DNA of 6,257 nucleotides from Pseudomonadota bacterium (GTDB taxonomy: Bacteria; Pseudomonadota; Alphaproteobacteria; Rhizobiales; Hyphomicrobiaceae). Shown here piece by piece: positions 1 through 6,257 of this stretch; within the stretch, counting starts at the first letter, position 1, and each line of letters opens with the position of its first letter. A program made the translations under genes and the position numbers. The stretch spans positions 1-6,257 of the forward strand of contig JAKALI010000258.1 in NCBI GenBank assembly GCA_021813195.1, given 5' to 3'. The notes below the pieces were generated by a model that worked only from the letters and a program-made list of their open reading frames with translations, did no database searches and had not been told where the DNA came from.

Positions 1-469
1 GCGCGGTCGGCGAGGCCATTTCGACCGGATTGACGATCGGCCCGCCGGCCTGTTCTTCCAGATCCTTGGCACGGCCGTCCCAGAATTGGGCCTTGTCATA
101 GACGGCGTTCAGGACTGTCGGCGCATTACGGCCACCGTGTTGCCAGCGATGGCCGAGAGAGGTGGGCTCGGCATCGACGCCGCCAAGCCCGACGTTGTGG
201 CAGGAATTACAGCTGATGGCATGACTCGCGGAAAGGCGCGGATCAAAGAACAGCATCTTTCCCAACTCGATCTTTGCCGGCGTCGACGCATTTCCCGGCA
301 GGCTTGGCGGCGCAGCGGGAATGGCCTGGAACTGCAAGCGTGCGCGCGCCATAAGGCTCGGCTGGGCGTCCGTTGGCGCAGCCAGCGCGATGCCGACCGA
401 CACGGCCAAGTTGCCGAGGCACGCAGCAGAGACGATCCCGATGCCCGGAATTCTTTTCAGCGCCAGCAT
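1..469 (-). CDS. Di-haem cytochrome c peroxidase (CcP/MauG family), N-terminal part, runs off the left edge
   Basis: Periplasmic bacterial di-haem peroxidases reduce H2O2 to water with electrons from small c-type cytochromes or quinol. The 156 visible codons begin with a signal peptide (MLALKR, then a hydrophobic stretch to about residue 31, likely cleaved near ALAAPTDA). The mature N-terminus follows: ELGKMLFFDPRLS (68-80), the first haem c-binding motif CNSCH (87-91), then NAPTVLNAVY (115-124) and QFWDGRAKDLEEQAGGP (128-144), all typical of CcP/MauG proteins. The second haem motif should lie beyond the window. The start is well fixed by AGGAG at 482-478, 8 nt upstream of ATG. Family members usually have 320-400 residues, so less than half is present. 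MauG-type maturation enzymes share this N-terminus and cannot be excluded. The gene lies outside the tRNA-flanked island and points away from it. Confidence 0.93.
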   Translation of the reverse strand, partial: MLALKRIPGIGIVSAACLGNLAVSVGIALAAPTDAQPSLMARARLQFQAIPAAPPSLPGNASTPAKIELGKMLFFDPRLSASHAISCNSCHNVGLGGVDAEPTSLGHRWQHGGRNAPTVLNAVYDKAQFWDGRAKDLEEQAGGPIVNPVEMASPTA

Positions 470-579
470 GATACCTGCTCCTTTGTTCAGACGGCGCCCG
501 CCGCTTCACGCCGCGGCGCCCATGAAAACCCGAAGCTGCCGTGTCTTCGGATCGGAACCCGGTCATTGCCGATTGACGC

Positions 580-599
580 GCCGTGTGAACTCGCACGGC
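580..599. promoter_or_regulatory. Imperfect 20-bp palindrome, possible operator for the peroxidase gene
   Basis: GCCGTG and CACGGC form perfect 6-bp arms around an 8-nt centre that is itself partly symmetrical; 8 of 10 position pairs are complementary across the 20 bp. It lies about 110 bp upstream of the peroxidase ATG, a suitable place for a regulator. No known binding motif is recognised. Confidence 0.25.
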
Positions 600-619
600 C
601 TTGTTCAACACAACAGCCG

Positions 620-638
620 CAGAAGGATTCGCCTTCTG
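620..638. other. Perfect stem-loop, 7-bp stem and 5-nt loop
   Basis: CAGAAGG at 620-626 pairs exactly with CCTTCTG at 632-638 around ATTCG. On the plus strand the stem is followed by TTGTTT, which makes it weakly terminator-like for rightward transcription. No rightward gene ends here. It may instead be a structure in a long peroxidase leader or a remnant. Confidence 0.3.
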
Positions 639-807
639 TTGTTTGCCGCAATGCTGCGCCGGACTGCGGCGAGAACATTGACCAGCATCAAGTCGTCTCA
701 AGGATGTGACCCGCACGCAAACAGCCAGCTCGAAGGCGAACCGGCGCGCGGCCGTCAGCTGCAGCGCCATCAGAAAAACGAGGGTCCGATCCGAATATTG
801 TCAACGC

Positions 808-821
808 TGGAGCGGGCGAAG
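808..821 (-). repeat. Left copy of a 14-bp direct repeat of the tRNA-Gly 3' end (putative att site)
   Basis: TGGAGCGGGCGAAG is identical, in the same orientation, to 4744-4757. On the minus strand it reads CTTCGCCCGCTCCA: the last two T-stem bases, the acceptor 3' strand, the discriminator and the encoded CCA of tRNA-Gly. The match stops at both ends (C versus T at 807/4743, C versus G at 822/4758). There is no further tRNA sequence here, so this is an isolated 3'-end copy, as left by site-specific integration into a tRNA gene. Confidence 0.65.
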
Positions 822-1194
822 CGCTTTAAGGCATTGATATTATACGCAATTCAGGAAACAAAACACGACTCTAGTTTCACCCTCAAAATTTGAGGTTGGA
901 CATTCCGTTGTCTGGCCGTTGGTCGTTTCAGTGCGCGATGAACCGATCAAGCGGACGCATCAGACTTCCGGCGTTACCAACCATTCCCATCTGAGGCGTT
1001 TCTATCGATGGCGATCATGTGTGCTCACCTTCGGGCATCCGGCTGATGGTCGTGGACTGATCCTTGGTCGAGAGAAGAACTTCCGACAGCGTTTTTTTCT
1101 TTTAGCCATGAGGGCAGCGCACATCGTGAAGCTGCAAACTTTTTCACTGCAAGCGCTCAGATTCGTCGATATTTTTATTTTAGGGTTTGCCAAC
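822..1194. other. Island left end downstream of fic, no intact gene; possible decayed coding sequence
   Basis: This 373-bp stretch lies between the left repeat and the fic stop codon. It contains a TATAAT-like hexamer on the minus strand (844-839) without a clear -35, and a 15-bp palindrome at 881-895. On the minus strand, one frame from 1101 to 928 is interrupted by a single TGA (1017-1015). Its second half ends in VGNAGSLMRPLDRFIAH before TGA at 930-928. This reads like protein but matches no family I recognise, so I treat it as a possible remnant only. No strong terminator for fic is visible; after the fic stop there is a weak GGTT-GGCA-AACC hairpin without a T-run. Confidence 0.4.
881..895. 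repeat. 15-bp palindrome CCTCAAA-A-TTTGAGG
   Basis: Two perfect 7-bp arms lie around a single A, in an A/T-rich stretch. It is 37 bp upstream (minus-strand sense) of a TATAAT hexamer at 844-839. It could be an operator or part of an element terminus. No adjacent intact gene explains it. Confidence 0.3.
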
Positions 1195-2388
1195 CTATGT
1201 CTCGGGGAACAGGGTCGGAAACAGTATATCGGCGGTGTCGAGCGTGAAGCGAAGAGATACCGGCCCTTTCGGCGTATCGGAGTCCAAAATCCCATCATTG
1301 GTCAGCGATGCCAACAGATCACGTGCCGAGCGTTCCTTGAGCCCTGTGACGCGCGCGGCCTCGCCACGCGGAATTTCTCCGCGATGGAGAACCTGTTCGA
1401 GCAGCGGCACCGCTTCGGGCTTCAGGTCGTGTCTTTCGACATAAATCCGGAGGCGGCGCGCCAGCGTATCGAGTTCGAACAGGCTGCTCATGAATGCGAC
1501 CTGATCGACACAGATTTTCAGGAACCACTCGGTAAATTCCGCCAGCGCGCGGCGCGAAAGATTGCCACGTCCATCAAGATCGCCCTGCCGCGGCGTGTCG
1601 GCATGATCCATCATGCGTTTGTAGTCGCCGCGGCTTTCGAGGCCGCGCGCCATACCCCGCGAAATCGACCAAAGACCATGCGCGCCAATACCGGCCTTGA
1701 GCGCCATCGCGTGGCTCATCAGGCGACTGACGCGGCCGTTGCCATCCGGAAAGGGGTGAATGTAATTGAGCCGATGGTGGGCGGCCGGAATGGCCATGAT
1801 GCGCGAACCTGCGCCAAGCCGGTCGAAGCGATAGGCTTGAGCGAAATGCTCCATGAAGGCGGGCACGCATGCCGAGGACGGCGGAATATGCCGCCCGACC
1901 GCAACGTCTTCTTCCGGGCGGCTTCGAAACGCGCCCGGCTGCATCAGGAAGTCATGGTTCTGCGATTTGATGCGAAGCATCTTTTCGGATGCGCCTTCGT
2001 AGAAGGCACCATGCAGCCAGAGAATGAATTCGGTCGAAGTCGGTTCGGGCAAGGTTCCAGCTGCGAAAAGGCGGTCGATTTCGCGCTGCACCCGGATATG
2101 GGCGCGGGCTTCGATCTGCAGATCGCGGCGATCCTGGTCTGCATCGAGCTGGTCGTTGAGAGCGCGCTCAATTTCGCGCGGCGTCGTGTTGTGCCCCTCG
2201 ATCAAGTTCGAGTAATAGCAATTCATAATGCGAACGAGTTCGGCCAGGTTCGCGGCCGATCGCGGATGGAGCTTCGCATCGAGCGAACCGGATGCGCGCG
2301 ATAGCTCGGCTACGAGATCGAGGATCGCGGGCGAGGCCTCGTCAAGCAGACAAGGCTCAATACGGGTCGGAGTTTCGATAAGCGCCAT
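1195..2388 (-). CDS. Fic-family protein adenylyltransferase (class II, self-inhibited)
   Basis: Fic enzymes transfer AMP, or another nucleotide moiety, from ATP to a hydroxyl of a target protein. The 397-residue product carries the full catalytic motif [12 protein letters not shown] at 211-222: catalytic His211, Asp215 for the metal, the GNGR phosphate anchor and Arg222. An N-terminal inhibitory-helix motif S60-NLI-E64-G65 fits (S/T)xxxE(G/N) and makes it class II, in which Glu64 blocks ATP binding in cis. That explains the absence of a separate Fic antitoxin gene. The C-terminal part (about 325-385, with [20 protein letters not shown]) looks like a winged helix, common in this Fic subgroup and possibly DNA-binding. 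ATG at 2388 gives a normal N-terminus; AAGG about 6 nt upstream is a weak ribosome binding site. The stop is TAG. It lies 295 bp downstream of hipA on the same strand, with its own promoter-like element. The target protein is unknown. Confidence 0.93.
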
Positions 2389-2434
2389 GGAAGCCTTAAG
2401 TTCTGCCGATCTCTGTTTTTCATAAGGGACTGTA

Positions 2435-2443
2435 TCTATAGCA
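2435..2443 (-). promoter_or_regulatory. Extended -10-like element upstream of fic
   Basis: The minus strand reads TGCTATAGA, a TGn extension joined to a TATAGA hexamer, 46 bp upstream of the fic ATG. A good -35 at 16-18 bp is missing (TGCGTT is the nearest at 16 bp). An extended -10 or activator-dependent promoter is the most that can be proposed. Confidence 0.35.
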
Positions 2444-2597
2444 CAATTTTCAATCTAACGCACGTATTTTGCCGATCTTCATGCCGGTCATTGAAATCGA
2501 ACCAATCGATTGAAATATATGAGTTTATCCCAATCGTCAGGCGTTCTTTCTGCCGATGGTGTCCCAACCGTTGGCGAACGGCACACTTGGCGGCCTC

Positions 2598-2642
2598 TAT
2601 ACGGAAAACCGCATAAATCCGGGATATACGGAAATCCGTATA
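2598..2642. promoter_or_regulatory. Tandem near-identical 18-bp palindromes (putative operators) between hipA and fic
   Basis: Site 1 (2598-2615) reads TATACGGAAAACCGCATA and site 2 (2625-2642) reads TATACGGAAATCCGTATA; 16 of 18 positions agree and starts are 27 bp apart. Site 2 is a perfect 8-2-8 palindrome, and site 1 has one mismatch in its outer 7-bp arms. A small ATCC-G-GGAT palindrome (2617-2625) lies between them. Repetition of the same dyad indicates protein binding rather than one RNA hairpin. They lie 210-254 bp upstream of the fic start and just after the hipA stop. The motif differs from the hipB-promoter half-sites, so another regulator, perhaps the Fic C-terminal winged helix, is expected. 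Confidence 0.55.
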
Positions 2643-2683
2643 AGTGAATTGGCCGAAGTCTTTTCTGCTCGTCCGATGCGTAA

Positions 2684-3979
2684 TCAGCCGGACGTGGATG
2701 ACCGGTTCAAGTTGTTCAGGCACGCCGTCATCCGGTTCGTAAGCCGCTCGGCCAGCCGGTCTACGGCCTCGCCTGCGAGACCGTCTTTGGCCGCATGTGC
2801 TTTTACCTCGCCGATCTGTGCGAGAATACCTGCCGCCATTTCGCGCAACGATACGATCACGGCATCGGCGTCGAGCCGAAGCTCGCGCGCGAGCTTTTGC
2901 CACTGCCGGATGCCGACAAGATACAGCTCGTATTCGCCGCCGATCTTCATCGCCAGCTTGACGCGACGCAGATCGAAATCGTCGTAGGGAAGAATGCTGG
3001 CAATGTCGTAGAGCGGCGCCAGGCGGATGCGCAGACCGGCGCCGATCAGCAGTGAATAATTCTTGGCGTGGGCATCGGTGCCGGCAATGAGCCAGTTGAA
3101 GCCGAGAGCCCGTACAAAGGTGTCGAGGTCGGTACGATGTTCGCTCGAATGCGTGCGGATCAGTTCGGCAATATCGGTGACGCCAGGTCCGCCTTCGTTC
3201 TGATACTTGCGCGTCGGCATGACGGCGAGCGCCTGGCACATATCTTCCTGATGGACGCGGACGATCTTGTTGCCACTTCTGTGCCGGTCGTAGCGCTCGA
3301 CGGCGATAGCGATCTCGTCTCCGAATCGCATGACGCGCGACGAAGCGGCAGGCAATCCGGCCGCGCGTGCAAGCGCAAGGCAGATGTGCTCATTCTCGGC
3401 ATGTCCGTCAAAATGCCCGGTAGGCGGCTTTAGAATGTGCGTGGTCGGGATGCGTCCCGAGGGGATGCCCCATTTGCCATCCTGATAGAGCAAAGCGGTC
3501 TTCGGCTGTGCTCCCGCAAGGCTGAACTGTCCGGTATCGCGCGGCAGGCGCCATGCGGCATGATCTTCCCGGAGCGCGCGAAGCCGTTCGGCGACCCCAT
3601 CCTCGTCGAGCCATTCGATTCCGTCGCCCGCTTTGCTTTGCAGACTTTCCATTCTTTCGGGCGGCACGACCTGAACCGCGCCGGCGCAGTCTTCGCCGAC
3701 ATGACCGATGAGCGCGAAGACATTGCGCGCCGACACCTGGAATTTCCGGGCCCAGCGTTCGAGCACGAGCTCGTTGTCCGGAAGCAGGCCCCAGAGAAAA
3801 GCTTCGATGCTGGCGGGCCCATGCTCTTTGGCCGCGAGCGGCATCGAAAGCGATAGAGGAAATGCGTTCGAAGCGTTCCGCCACGCCTCGTCGTAGACGA
3901 AGGTCAGGCGGTCGCGCAGTCCGCGGCGGACGCGTCCGACTTCATTGCCTCCGAGCAAGACGACAAGCTCCTTGCTCAT
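2684..3979 (-). CDS. hipA: HipA-family serine/threonine kinase toxin
   Basis: HipA kinases phosphorylate translation factors; E. coli HipA inactivates glutamyl-tRNA synthetase, and related kinases hit other aminoacyl-tRNA synthetases, leading to growth arrest. The 431 residues match the usual 430-440. The N-terminal subdomain (1 to about 105, with FLWGLLPDNE at 61-70) precedes the kinase core. Visible motifs are the loop FSLAGAQPKTALL (152-164; Ser153 corresponds to the autophosphorylated Ser150 of E. coli), the ATP-binding Lys184 in THILKPP, the catalytic Asp302 and Asn307 in TDAHAKN, and metal-binding Asp325 in PLYD. All key residues are intact, so it should be active. ATG at 3979 overlaps the hipB stop (ATGA), with AGAGG at 3989-3985 as ribosome binding site inside hipB, so the two are translationally coupled. 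The target of this HipA cannot be inferred from sequence. Confidence 0.96.
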   Translation of the reverse strand: MSKELVVLLGGNEVGRVRRGLRDRLTFVYDEAWRNASNAFPLSLSMPLAAKEHGPASIEAFLWGLLPDNELVLERWARKFQVSARNVFALIGHVGEDCAGAVQVVPPERMESLQSKAGDGIEWLDEDGVAERLRALREDHAAWRLPRDTGQFSLAGAQPKTALLYQDGKWGIPSGRIPTTHILKPPTGHFDGHAENEHICLALARAAGLPAASSRVMRFGDEIAIAVERYDRHRSGNKIVRVHQEDMCQALAVMPTRKYQNEGGPGVTDIAELIRTHSSEHRTDLDTFVRALGFNWLIAGTDAHAKNYSLLIGAGLRIRLAPLYDIASILPYDDFDLRRVKLAMKIGGEYELYLVGIRQWQKLARELRLDADAVIVSLREMAAGILAQIGEVKAHAAKDGLAGEAVDRLAERLTNRMTACLNNLNRSSTSG

Positions 3980-4269
3980 GGCCGCCTCTTGTTACGTGCG
4001 GCATCGACAATAGCGTCGATATCGACATCGGGTAGCGCGGCCGGTTTCGTCTTCGGCTTCGTTCCGGCATCCACGCTGAGAGGGATGTCGAGAATGTCGA
4101 GCGCACGAAGAACGAGACCCAGTTCGGCACGCGCGCGGCCGCGCTCGACACCGATCACCCATTGGCGGCTCGCGCCGATACTCTTGGCGAGCGCAGCCTG
4201 ATCGAGGCCCAGTTCCCTGCGGCGGTTCCGGATGGCAGCTCCGAGATCGGATGGCGTACGTATCAGCAT
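3976..4269 (-). CDS. hipB: HipB-like XRE-family antitoxin and autorepressor
   Basis: HipB proteins bind and neutralise HipA and repress the operon as dimers. The 97-residue product has an XRE helix-turn-helix at about 7-63 (LGLDQAALAKSIGASRQWV, then GVERGRARAELGLVLRALDIL). A flexible Lys/Pro-rich linker (70-80) leads to a charged tail DVDIDAIVDAARNKRRP. The length is close to E. coli HipB (88). It is the first gene of the operon; its stop overlaps the hipA start by 4 nt. ATG at 4269 is chosen because it gives a complete helix-turn-helix, and an upstream ATG on the same transcript meets a stop before it. The ribosome binding site is weak (AGAG close to the ATG). A promoter and inverted half-sites lie directly upstream, consistent with autorepression. 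Confidence 0.93.
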   Translation of the reverse strand: MLIRTPSDLGAAIRNRRRELGLDQAALAKSIGASRQWVIGVERGRARAELGLVLRALDILDIPLSVDAGTKPKTKPAALPDVDIDAIVDAARNKRRP

Positions 4270-4280
4270 GGCTCTATCTG

Positions 4281-4300
4281 ATGTTAGCGATAGCTGACAT
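4281..4300. promoter_or_regulatory. Probable HipB operator, ATGTTA-N8-TGACAT
   Basis: A 20-bp dyad: ATGTTAGC (4281-4288) and GCTGACAT (4293-4300) match as inverted arms at 7 of 8 positions. Half-sites are separated by 8 bp, the same geometry as the TATCC-N8-GGATA operators of E. coli HipB, though with different bases. It overlaps the predicted start of transcription and the edge of the -10 hexamer, where bound HipB would block RNA polymerase. Confidence 0.6.
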
Positions 4301-4353
4301 TATATATATGTCATCGTTCGATTACAATCATAAAAGTACACGATCGATGACAT
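4295..4353. promoter_or_regulatory. Further TGACAT/ATGTCA half-sites around the hipB promoter
   Basis: TGACAT (4295-4300) and ATGTCA (4308-4313) form a perfect inverted pair around a TATATAT spacer that contains the -10. ATGTCATCG (4308-4316) and CGATGACAT (4345-4353) form a perfect 9-bp inverted pair enclosing 28 bp that include the -35. Together with 4281-4286 this gives four related half-sites across 73 bp, suggesting cooperative or looped binding of HipB or HipBA. Confidence 0.45.
4299..4327 (-). promoter_or_regulatory. Sigma70-type promoter of hipBA
   Basis: On the minus strand a perfect TATAAT (4304-4299) lies 17 bp downstream of TTGTAA (4327-4322, 4 of 6 matches to TTGACA). Transcription would start near 4292, leaving a leader of roughly 20 nt before the hipB ATG. 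The -10 is embedded in the palindromic half-sites, so repression by occlusion is expected. Confidence 0.6.
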
Positions 4354-4691
4354 TGAGTGCCGAGGATAAGCCACTGATCTGGAGGCCAAAAGCCACTTTT
4401 CTCATGACAGCGGCCGGAAGAATGCGGTTTTTCCGATCATAAGAAGGCAACCTTGAAAATCTCAGGAGCGAAGCGGACCTGGCACAGTCAACAACCCAGG
4501 AGACGCTTAGTGGGGAGAGGCGAGCGCTCGCAATCCGAATGAGACTGACATCGATAATCTCTCCATCCGGCGGGCAGGCCATTGCTGCCGCTTGCTCAAC
4601 TTCGTCGTCTTGCCATAGTCGGTGAACGCCATGCGAACTCGCGCGCGAATCTCAGAGAACAGAACAATAACAGAACTGGAAAAACTATGGA

Positions 4692-4716
4692 AAAACTGCT
4701 CCGTCTACTGACGGAA
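4692..4716 (-). terminator. Possible weak Rho-independent terminator for tRNA-Gly
   Basis: Reading the minus strand, TCCGTC-AGTA-GACGGA (4716-4701) is a perfect 6-bp stem with a 4-nt loop, followed after GCAG by five T (4696-4692). It lies 28 nt downstream of the tRNA 3' end. The gap between stem and T-run makes it weak. Confidence 0.35.
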
Positions 4717-4743
4717 AATCTCACGTAAGACATTGAAATTGTT

Positions 4744-4757
4744 TGGAGCGGGCGAAG
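4744..4757 (-). repeat. Right copy of the 14-bp direct repeat (3' end of tRNA-Gly, putative att site)
   Basis: TGGAGCGGGCGAAG covers the CCA end, discriminator, acceptor 3' strand and last two T-stem bases of the intact tRNA gene, and is repeated exactly at 808-821. Integration here leaves the tRNA functional because the incoming copy restores its 3' end. Confidence 0.65.
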
Positions 4758-4817
4758 GGAATCGAACCCTCGTATGCAGCTTGGGAAGCTGCCGTTCTAC
4801 CATTGAACTACGCCCGC
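4744..4817 (-). tRNA. tRNA-Gly (anticodon CCC), CCA encoded
   Basis: The 74-nt minus-strand gene folds into a full cloverleaf. It has a perfect 7-bp acceptor stem (GCGGGCG at 4817-4811 with CGCCCGC at 4754-4748) and a D arm GTTC/GAAC with a GG-containing loop. The anticodon arm is GCAGC-TTCCCAA-GCTGC with anticodon CCC at 4785-4783, the variable loop is short, and the T arm is GAGGG-TTCGATT-CCCTT. The discriminator is T, and CCA is encoded at 4746-4744. It decodes GGG. Its 5' boundary lies in a 12-bp palindrome GCCCGCGCGGGC (4812-4823). Its 3' end is the proposed island insertion site. Confidence 0.95.
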
Positions 4818-5027
4818 GCGGGCAGCCTCTCTAGCACCCCCCGCCGGCTGGCGGAAGGGCCGACCCGGCCGGTCCGGCTCCACCCTCGCTGCGCCCGGCG
4901 GCCCGCTGCCCGGCCTGCCGGATTGCCGATTGTCAACGGCCCGGCCCCACGCGGCCTGGCGCGGAAGACTACTCGGCCGGACCGAACTGTGGTTCATAGG
5001 GGCCGTTTGCTGCACGGATCCTCCCGC

Positions 5028-6170
5028 ATGCCCCTGTCCGCCGTCCCCACGCCCGCCAGCCCGGCCGCGACCCCCGCCACGGGCCCCGGGCCGGTGCTGT
5101 CGGTCGTGATTCCCACGCTCAACGAGGCCGGCAACGTGGCCGAGTTGGTGTCGCGCATCGAGCGGGCGCTGAGCGGCGTGGCCTGGGAAGTGATCTTCGT
5201 GGACGACAATTCGCCCGATGGCACCGCCGCCGTCGCCAAGCGCCTCAGCCTTTCGGACCGGCGCGTGCGCTGCATCCGGCGGGTGGAGCGCCGGGGGCTG
5301 GCCGGGGCCTGCATCGAGGGCATCCTGTCCTCGGCCGCGCCCTTCGTGGCGGTGATGGACGCCGATTTGCAGCACGACGAAGCCATCCTGCCCCGGATGC
5401 TGGCGCGGCTGGAACGGGGCGACACCGACCTGGTGGTCGGCACGCGCTATGTCGAGGGCGGCAGCGCCGAAGCCTTCGACGCCAAGCGCGGCGCGCTCAG
5501 CCGCATCGCCACCAGGGCGGCGCAGCGTTTCCTCGGCACTCAGCTCAGCGATCCGATGAGCGGCTTCTTCATGCTCCGCCGCGAAGTGGTGGAGGCGATG
5601 GCGGGCGATCTCACGGCCGAAGGCTTCAAGATCCTGCTCGACATCGTCACCACGGCGGGCGGCAAGCTGCGTATCGCCGAGGAGCCCTTCGTTTTCCGTA
5701 CCCGCTTCAGCGGCGAGAGCAAGTTCGACAGCCGCGTCGGCATCGAGTTCCTCGGCCTCTTGCTGGGCAAGATGACTTTCGGCGTGGTCAATCCGCGCTT
5801 CCTGCTGTTTGCGCTGGTGGGCACGGCCGGGCTCGGCGTGCATCTGATCGTGCTGAAGGCGAGCCTCATCTATGCCGGCGCCGTCTTTCCGGCGGCCCAG
5901 TCGCTCGCCACCTTCACGGCGATGGGCAATAACTTCGTGCTCAACAATTTCCTCACCTATCGCGACCGGCGGCTGAAGGGGCTCGGGATGCTCAAGGGCT
6001 TCGCCGGCTTCTGCCTGATCGGCGCGGCGGGGGCGCTCACCAATGTCGGCATCGCCTCCTATTTCTACGTCGAGCGGCCGGTGTGGTGGCTGGCCGGCCT
6101 GACCGGCGCTTTGGTGGGCCTGTTGTGGAACTACACGATGTCGAGCCGGTTCGTTTGGCACACGCGGTGA
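5028..6170 (+). CDS. Polyprenyl-phosphate glycosyltransferase (DPM1-like GT2) fused to a GtrA membrane domain
   Basis: The protein should transfer a sugar from a nucleotide sugar to polyprenyl phosphate at the cytoplasmic face of the inner membrane, with GtrA helping to anchor or flip the product. The GT2 domain spans about 24-250: LSVVIPTLNEAGNV (24-37), VDDNSPDGT (58-66), the metal-binding DADLQH (111-116), GTRYVEGG (138-145) and SDPMSGFFMLRR (174-185), which resemble dolichyl-phosphate mannose synthase. GtrA covers about 257-377 with some four membrane helices and NNFVLNNFLTYRDRR (301-315). I choose ATG 5028 (380 residues). The frame stays open upstream to 4743, but that part runs antisense through tRNA-Gly and a non-protein-like stretch. 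The ribosome binding site at 5028 is weak, and GTG 4989 or TTG 5007 are alternatives. The sugar is unknown. The stop overlaps the next start (GTGA), indicating an operon. Confidence 0.92.
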   Translation: MPLSAVPTPASPAATPATGPGPVLSVVIPTLNEAGNVAELVSRIERALSGVAWEVIFVDDNSPDGTAAVAKRLSLSDRRVRCIRRVERRGLAGACIEGILSSAAPFVAVMDADLQHDEAILPRMLARLERGDTDLVVGTRYVEGGSAEAFDAKRGALSRIATRAAQRFLGTQLSDPMSGFFMLRREVVEAMAGDLTAEGFKILLDIVTTAGGKLRIAEEPFVFRTRFSGESKFDSRVGIEFLGLLLGKMTFGVVNPRFLLFALVGTAGLGVHLIVLKASLIYAGAVFPAAQSLATFTAMGNNFVLNNFLTYRDRRLKGLGMLKGFAGFCLIGAAGALTNVGIASYFYVERPVWWLAGLTGALVGLLWNYTMSSRFVWHTR

Positions 6171-6257
6171 GCCCGCCATCGGCCACGCAAAACCTGCGCG
6201 CGCTGCTGGTCGCGGTGGCGTTGCTGGTCGTCGCGCGCGTGGTGGTGGCGGCGGTGC
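6167..6257 (+). CDS. Membrane protein, N-terminal fragment; probably a polytopic glycosyltransferase
   Basis: GTG at 6167 overlaps the preceding TGA by 4 nt, the usual sign of translational coupling. The 30 visible codons give a short polar start (SPPSATQNLR) and then a strongly hydrophobic segment (ALLVAVALLVVARVVVAAV) typical of a first transmembrane helix. No catalytic motif is within the window. Genes coupled to polyprenyl-phosphate-sugar synthases of this kind are often GT39/ArnT-like membrane glycosyltransferases that use the lipid-linked sugar. That is inferred from context only. Confidence 0.65.
   Translation, partial: MSPPSATQNLRALLVAVALLVVARVVVAAV

Follow-up and report, generated by a model that had tools for sequence, protein, structure and literature searches.

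The window analysed here is a stretch of 6,257 nucleotides from an alphaproteobacterium of the family Hyphomicrobiaceae (contig JAKALI010000258.1 of assembly GCA_021813195.1). Its segment 808-4757, called the islet below, is probably a small genomic island without an integrase, similar to the cis-mobilizable elements (CIMEs), that was integrated site-specifically at a tRNA-Gly(CCC) gene across a 14-bp core and carries toxin-antitoxin and defence-type genes; it would either be moved in trans or be a relic. Two genomes recur in what follows. G001 (REEB62) is a 3.7-Mb metagenome-assembled genome (MAG) of an uncultured alphaproteobacterium of the same species, and its contig C54 is 98.5% identical to window positions 1-6226. 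G006 belongs to a second species.

The islet is bounded by two exact copies of TGGAGCGGGCGAAG, at 808-821 and 4744-4757, one of which is part of the tRNA gene:

808..821, + strand: distal 14-bp core, the attachment-site half away from the tRNA (exact match; homology with G006 starts here; unique to the site in G001)
4744..4757, + strand: proximal 14-bp core, the encoded 3' end of tRNA-Gly including CCA (exact match, ARAGORN)
4744..4817, - strand: intact tRNA-Gly(CCC) (ARAGORN; Rfam, 72.2 bits over 4747-4817)

The 14-mer occurs twice in G001, both times at the tRNA-Gly site and nowhere else, and the reversed 14-mer, used there as a control pattern, gave no match. A third copy with 2 mismatches lies inside the window (3570-3583). 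At up to 2 mismatches, shuffles are expected to hold 0.15 matches (sd 0.39), and 3 matches were seen in 0 of 200. As a yardstick for chance, 22,800 random 14-mers were taken from the sequence upstream of these tRNAs, and 4 of them have another copy in the 5 kb downstream, or about 2e-4 for a given 14-mer. A chance repeat next to an ordinary chromosomal hipBA-fic locus is thus extremely improbable, even with a repeat of just 14 bp and with islet genes whose G+C (about 0.59-0.64) is close to that of the left flank. This reading is refuted in substance by the borders shared with other species, G006 in particular, and by cargo exchange that outpaces core genes, both described below.

HipBA and Fic are the sole confident cargo between the two cores:

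3976..4269, - strand: hipB, helix-turn-helix antitoxin, 97 aa (Pfam HTH_31, 2.1e-9; NCBIfam couple_hipB, 59 bits, under the cut-off of 71.65)
2684..3979, - strand: hipA, kinase toxin, 431 aa, overlapping hipB (Pfam HipA_C, 1.7e-52, and Couple_hipA, 1.1e-24; PDB HipA, 3.5e-53)
1195..2388, - strand: fic, Fic-domain adenylyltransferase, 397 aa (Pfam Fic, 4.4e-13; PADLOC SoFic, 1.6e-24; PDB Fido, 1.8e-14)
2598..2643, no strand: two near-palindromic 19-mers between hipA and fic, a candidate operator (2591-2643 is 92% conserved in G006)
4308..4353, no strand: 18-nt inverted repeat upstream of hipB, a candidate operator (repeat listing)

The gene layout is that of a HipBA type II toxin-antitoxin system, with a helix-turn-helix antitoxin gene overlapping a HipA kinase that has both its N and C domains. 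In the Fic protein the motifs HPFPDGNGR and SNLIEG, which we take to be active-site motifs, are intact as read by eye. It is assigned to the Fic family and not to SoFic, since it scores 18.8 bits with the NCBIfam SoFic model against a curated cut-off of 550. A search of plasmids for Fic gave 258 records, of which 12 fall in the 60-80% identity range and the closest reaches 68%; they reflect the general spread of Fic and not of the islet.

No integrase was found. PF00589 has no match on contig C54, and a tblastn search of the window with 26 integrases gave E = 0.033 at best; a diverged remnant could escape this search, as single-sequence detection of even the G033 integrase introduced below is weak (best 5e-7 besides itself). 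Other recombinases were likewise absent by Pfam from the main open reading frames (ORFs) of the window, serine recombinases not being searched in six frames, and transfer genes were absent from the ORFs scanned, oriT not being searched.

Both ends of the islet recur in other genomes:

808..949, no strand: distal element end (88% identity over 142 bp in G006, 77% over 118 in G025; in 3 of 96 family genomes)
4679..4743, no strand: tRNA-side element end (79% in G006, where it adjoins the distal 14-mer; in G027 contig C163, 83% over 64 nt)
4677-4685 and 4688-4696, no strand: TGGAAAAAC direct repeats in the tRNA-side end, candidate arm sites
827..837, - strand: TCAATGCCTTA beside the distal core, a candidate recombinase site (direct-repeat partner of 4726-4736, by reading)
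4726..4736, - strand: TCAATGTCTTA beside the proximal core, a candidate recombinase site (partner of 827-837, by reading)

The occurrence of the islet is patchy. Among 69 genomes of the genus, 7 have a match to the segment at E <= 1e-20, and only in G001 and G006 do hipBA and fic lie at tRNA-Gly(CCC); G059, for example, has a fic fragment 13.8 kb away from its tRNA. The tRNA-side end is found in 3 of the 69 (G001, G006 and G027); in G006 and G027 its end alignments score 26 and 28, where shuffles reach no more than 14. Four further genomes were considered as carriers of this end. G024 was dropped because its match is internal to the query and not at the end. The end of G047 resembles that of the window by eye and has a 106-nt match that includes the tRNA; its end alignment score of 9 is within the shuffle range, and it is not counted. 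G054 and G052 reach a score of 13, which exceeds 99.9% of shuffles and stays under the shuffle maximum. At class level, a pattern search matched G001 alone among 385 sampled genomes; the sample holds neither G006 nor G027, in both of which a match would be expected, and is therefore little informative.

In G006 (locus L124) position 12753 marks the tRNA, and another exact 14-mer is found at 5067. The interval contains an HNH gene, hipB, hipA, AbiEi, AbiEii, fic and a gene for a 531-aa Fic protein. The 142-bp homology to the distal end of the window stops at the 14-mer, and directly past it stands sequence 79% identical to the tRNA-side end of the window (4679-4757). A second element end thus abuts the distal core, so that two elements stand in tandem by accretion. 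Outward of this second end follow a second Fic gene, GDT1 (named by Pfam), a DoxX-like gene, a 96-aa ORF and a DEAD-box helicase gene (the DoxX and helicase names are by reading); the far core of the outer element is not visible on the contig, and PF00589 and integrase hidden Markov model (HMM) searches of the contig found no integrase.

The ends are also found with other contents. The third species, G025, retains a 340-bp remnant at the tRNA, in which 66 bp of fic (92%) are fused to the distal end (75-77%); the core has drifted, and GDT1 comes after the remnant. In the fourth species, G021, the downstream genes match, there is no element match at E <= 1e-8, and 1.34 kb precede GDT1. At the start of contig C163 of G027, the tRNA-side end (score 28) directly adjoins a 3' fragment of tRNA-Gly, and behind this end are OloA/OloB of Olokun (6.8e-68, 3.4e-190) and IetA/IetS (1.9e-64, 1e-33). 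PF00589 and the integrase HMM gave no match on this contig, which stops at 10.6 kb, so that its far end is unseen. The Olokun and IetA/IetS genes of C163 adjoin one another (L185, 2760-10493).

The cargo has been exchanged between species. At fourfold sites, G001 and G006 are 90.9% identical in fic (209 sites), 66.2% in hipA (219) and 66.7% in hipB (54), against 35.3% in valS (348) and 46.7% in the partial DEAD-box helicase gene (90). Because rpoB is missing from G001, aminoacyl-tRNA synthetase genes served as the core genes, with valS, leuS and ileS named from their PF00133 match and length; nucleotide identities of 73% for leuS and 71-76% for pieces of ileS fit a distant pair. As fourfold-site identity is higher in the cargo than in valS, the cargo was exchanged after the two species diverged, and by the same sequence measure fic was exchanged more recently than hipBA.

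Much of what the first-pass annotation had proposed from the letters of the window holds up on these data: the repeat pair, whose second copy is the 3' end of an intact tRNA-Gly with CCA (exact matches, ARAGORN, Rfam); HipBA and Fic as the only confident cargo (Pfam); and the lack of a recombinase (PF00589 on C54, tblastn on the window). Its reading of the segment as a minimal integrated element between two copies of the tRNA-Gly 3' end is supported by borders that recur in other species, by patchy presence, by low divergence of the cargo relative to core genes and by the confinement of the 14-mer to the site in G001.

The same data bear on how the islet came to lack an integrase. It may be a pure relic, with somewhat less than an even chance: the integrase would have been lost by deletion, the block would be immobile, and its genes would spread by homologous recombination at the tRNA and the old ends. 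Such a history would suit an element without an integrase, fic and hipBA of unequal age, the replaced tRNA-side end of G006 and the 340-bp remnant of G025. It sits less well with a window in which no integrase remnant was detected (best tblastn E 0.033) and with a tRNA-side end that recurs with other cargo in G027.

That the islet is an integrated island draws further support from the tRNA-Gly genes of the genus, which form a hot spot for such elements. The 58 tRNA-Gly loci collected have the anticodon CCC in 56 cases (the exceptions being G032 and one G059 locus). Downstream sequence was available for 57 loci and amounts to 595 kb within 15 kb; 31 loci reach about 15 kb and 16 have less than 5 kb. 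At 4 of these 57 loci (the window, G006, G031 and G060), 12 nt of the tRNA 3' end are repeated within 15 kb, while controls with the tRNA 5' 12-mer and with reversed and complemented 12-mers gave 0 of 57 in the same range, and random upstream 12-mers recurred in 45 of 11,400 trials. Other islands are present at tRNA-Gly(CCC). G033 has a 47-bp tRNA copy at 21 kb with an integrase between the copies. G031 has a 3.7-kb island with a 47-bp repeat and LysR, 2Fe-2S and molybdopterin-binding genes. The island of G004 (L191, 3093-5551) measures 2.4 kb and has an imperfect tRNA copy; no integrase was seen in either island. The tRNA copy beside the G004 island lacks an encoded CCA. In G060 the copy is 23 nt long and just 90 nt away.

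At 16 of 59 ends a short motif, CTTA[GC], is found no more than 22 nt from the tRNA end, compared with 70 of 10,569 background windows, a descriptive figure as the genomes are related. Its offset is mostly 3, and is 14 in the window, G047 and G027. These motifs are probably recombinase sites, or else possibly a tRNA-trailer signal.

Integrases are available in these genomes. PF00589 is present in 14 of 14 genomes searched, with 10 matches in G001. An integrase HMM run downstream of the 57 loci found 2, in G033 (6.5 kb) and G059 (16.7 kb); these two sequences were among those it was built from, and each is still detected when left out. In a search for helpers, 26 integrases from 23 loci were examined, and a tRNA was present at 6 loci. 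One G001 integrase adjoins tRNA-Phe and another lies about 3.5 kb from tRNA-Glu. Of the 26, the integrase of the G033 island shares a locus with tRNA-Gly(CCC), that of G059 being on the same contig 16.7 kb off. Contig C30 of G001 has three tyrosine recombinase genes consecutively (L215, 257-3464), a row like that of recombinase-trio elements.

A possible reading, placed close to the exchanging relic in likelihood, is that of an integrase-free satellite, a non-autonomous cassette that regularly uses the integrases of other elements at tRNA-Gly(CCC). Common ends around differing cargo, the recurrence of small integrase-free islands at this tRNA (G031, G004) and the several tyrosine recombinases elsewhere in G001 would all be expected of it. 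An autonomous element with the same ends was not found. The repeat of the islet, 14 bp, is also shorter than that of other islands at the tRNA, which is 47 bp in G031 and G033, and would put the crossover of the islet in the last 14 bases. Nothing positive emerged for the satellite-type island that the first-pass annotation had entertained. A phage or phage-satellite origin was rejected: no phage-related genes were found in the window, and a search of viral contigs with HipA, Fic and the two end patterns gave three Fic relatives at 55-56% identity and none for HipA or the ends. An extended version, in which the islet belongs to a family of obligately non-autonomous, recombinase-free defence cassettes at tRNA-Gly(CCC) that share attachment ends, vary in cargo (HipBA-Fic, AbiE-Fic, Olokun-IetAS), rely on the integrases of unrelated residents and grow in tandem into a defence array, is put forward tentatively and is less likely than not.

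For the CIME-like island, the following course is proposed. Integration at the tRNA-Gly 3' end would have been by a recombinase no longer carried, probably of the tyrosine type. Both attachment ends are kept, and the islet, encoding neither integration nor transfer, would act like a cis-mobilizable element. Lying in a hot spot of tandem element stacking, it may later have been stacked upon or exchanged. Any continuing movement would depend on the integrase of another element acting on the islet ends, or on homologous exchange for which the tRNA and the ends in common provide the anchor. A possible role of HipBA is to stabilise the islet through arrest of cells that lose it.

Several observations count against the CIME-like island. 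The empty site predicted by the first-pass annotation, with the tRNA joined to sequence left of 808, was not found in exact form in the genomes compared; the G025 remnant and G021 come nearest. No excised circle was seen, and none of the 26 integrases from 23 loci is linked to the islet ends as a helper. The repeat is just 14 bp, and MAG contigs are short. G006 has a tRNA-side end of its own unlike that of the window, which means that over their whole length the two islets are not one and the same unit. Finally, hipBA and fic differ in age, for which homologous exchange alone could account.

In the CIMEs and tandem accretion described in PMC5704250, as in the islet, both attachment ends are present without integration or transfer genes and elements stack at the 3' end of the target gene. 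By sequence, the islet has attL- and attR-like ends at its target gene, and neither integration genes, an integrase remnant nor transfer genes were found in the window. The testable features of a CIME are thus present, while descent from an integrative and conjugative or integrative and mobilizable element would be conjectural. Host group and cargo differ, and mobility of the islet would rest on analogy. The Dehalococcoides ssrA islands (PMC3146451) are tandem and bounded by copies of the tmRNA 3' end; 15 are without an integration module and have been suggested to be cis-mobilizable. They resemble the islet in lacking this module and in their RNA-gene borders, and differ in having a serine recombinase and reductive dehalogenase cargo, where the islet has tRNA-Gly and toxin-antitoxin or defence genes. 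In Shewanella (PMC8978831), HipAB of GI21, part of the composite island CGI48, helps to maintain the island. GI21 shares with the islet a HipAB system at a tRNA-gene island site, whereas CGI48 and GI21 are excised when integrase and excisionase are expressed, and the islet encodes neither. Defence hot spots of E. coli (PMC10121019) are fixed chromosomal sites with no detectable class of mobile element. They too hold defence cargo at a fixed site, and many retain integrase or recombinase genes, in contrast to the islet, where none was found.

Tandem arrays with members that lack an integrase have been published before, as have defence islands whose mobility is unclear (PMC5704250, PMC3146451, PMC10121019). 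The host group, the site, the very small size with exact borders and the common ends around different defence cargo are new, and a literature search found no publication on the islet. The islet bears on how defence and toxin-antitoxin genes move on recombinase-free islands, a matter raised by many defence hot spots. With borders resolved to the base, a length of only 3.9 kb and one tRNA gene as its site, it is well suited to the study of trans-mobilisation in a small attP/attB assay. Remodelling of such cassettes is evident from the unequal ages of fic and hipBA inside a single islet.

To the left of 808 the DNA is variable. In G001 it consists of about 20 kb of CCP/MauG, cytochrome b561, ApbE, NosR-like, NosZ and further genes up to a Crp-type regulator (NosR is named by reading; Pfam gives Fer4_5 and FMN_bind). 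The DEAD-box helicase gene is 24.6 kb from the tRNA in G001 and 12.1, 5.5 and 3.2 kb from it in G006, G021 and G025, in which relatives of the CCP gene are on contigs other than that of the tRNA. With a flank of this kind, a clean empty site is unreadable from these genomes. The CCP-NosZ genes of REEB62 (L088, 5758-14125), between the islet and the helicase gene, are possibly an acquired nitrous-oxide-reduction cluster.

To the right of the tRNA, window positions 5250-6226 are about 11% different from contig C54 and 99.8% identical to contig C92 of G001. The concentration of differences beyond 5250, together with the match to C92, suggests mixed strains, or else a recombination joint in the glycosyltransferase gene at this side.

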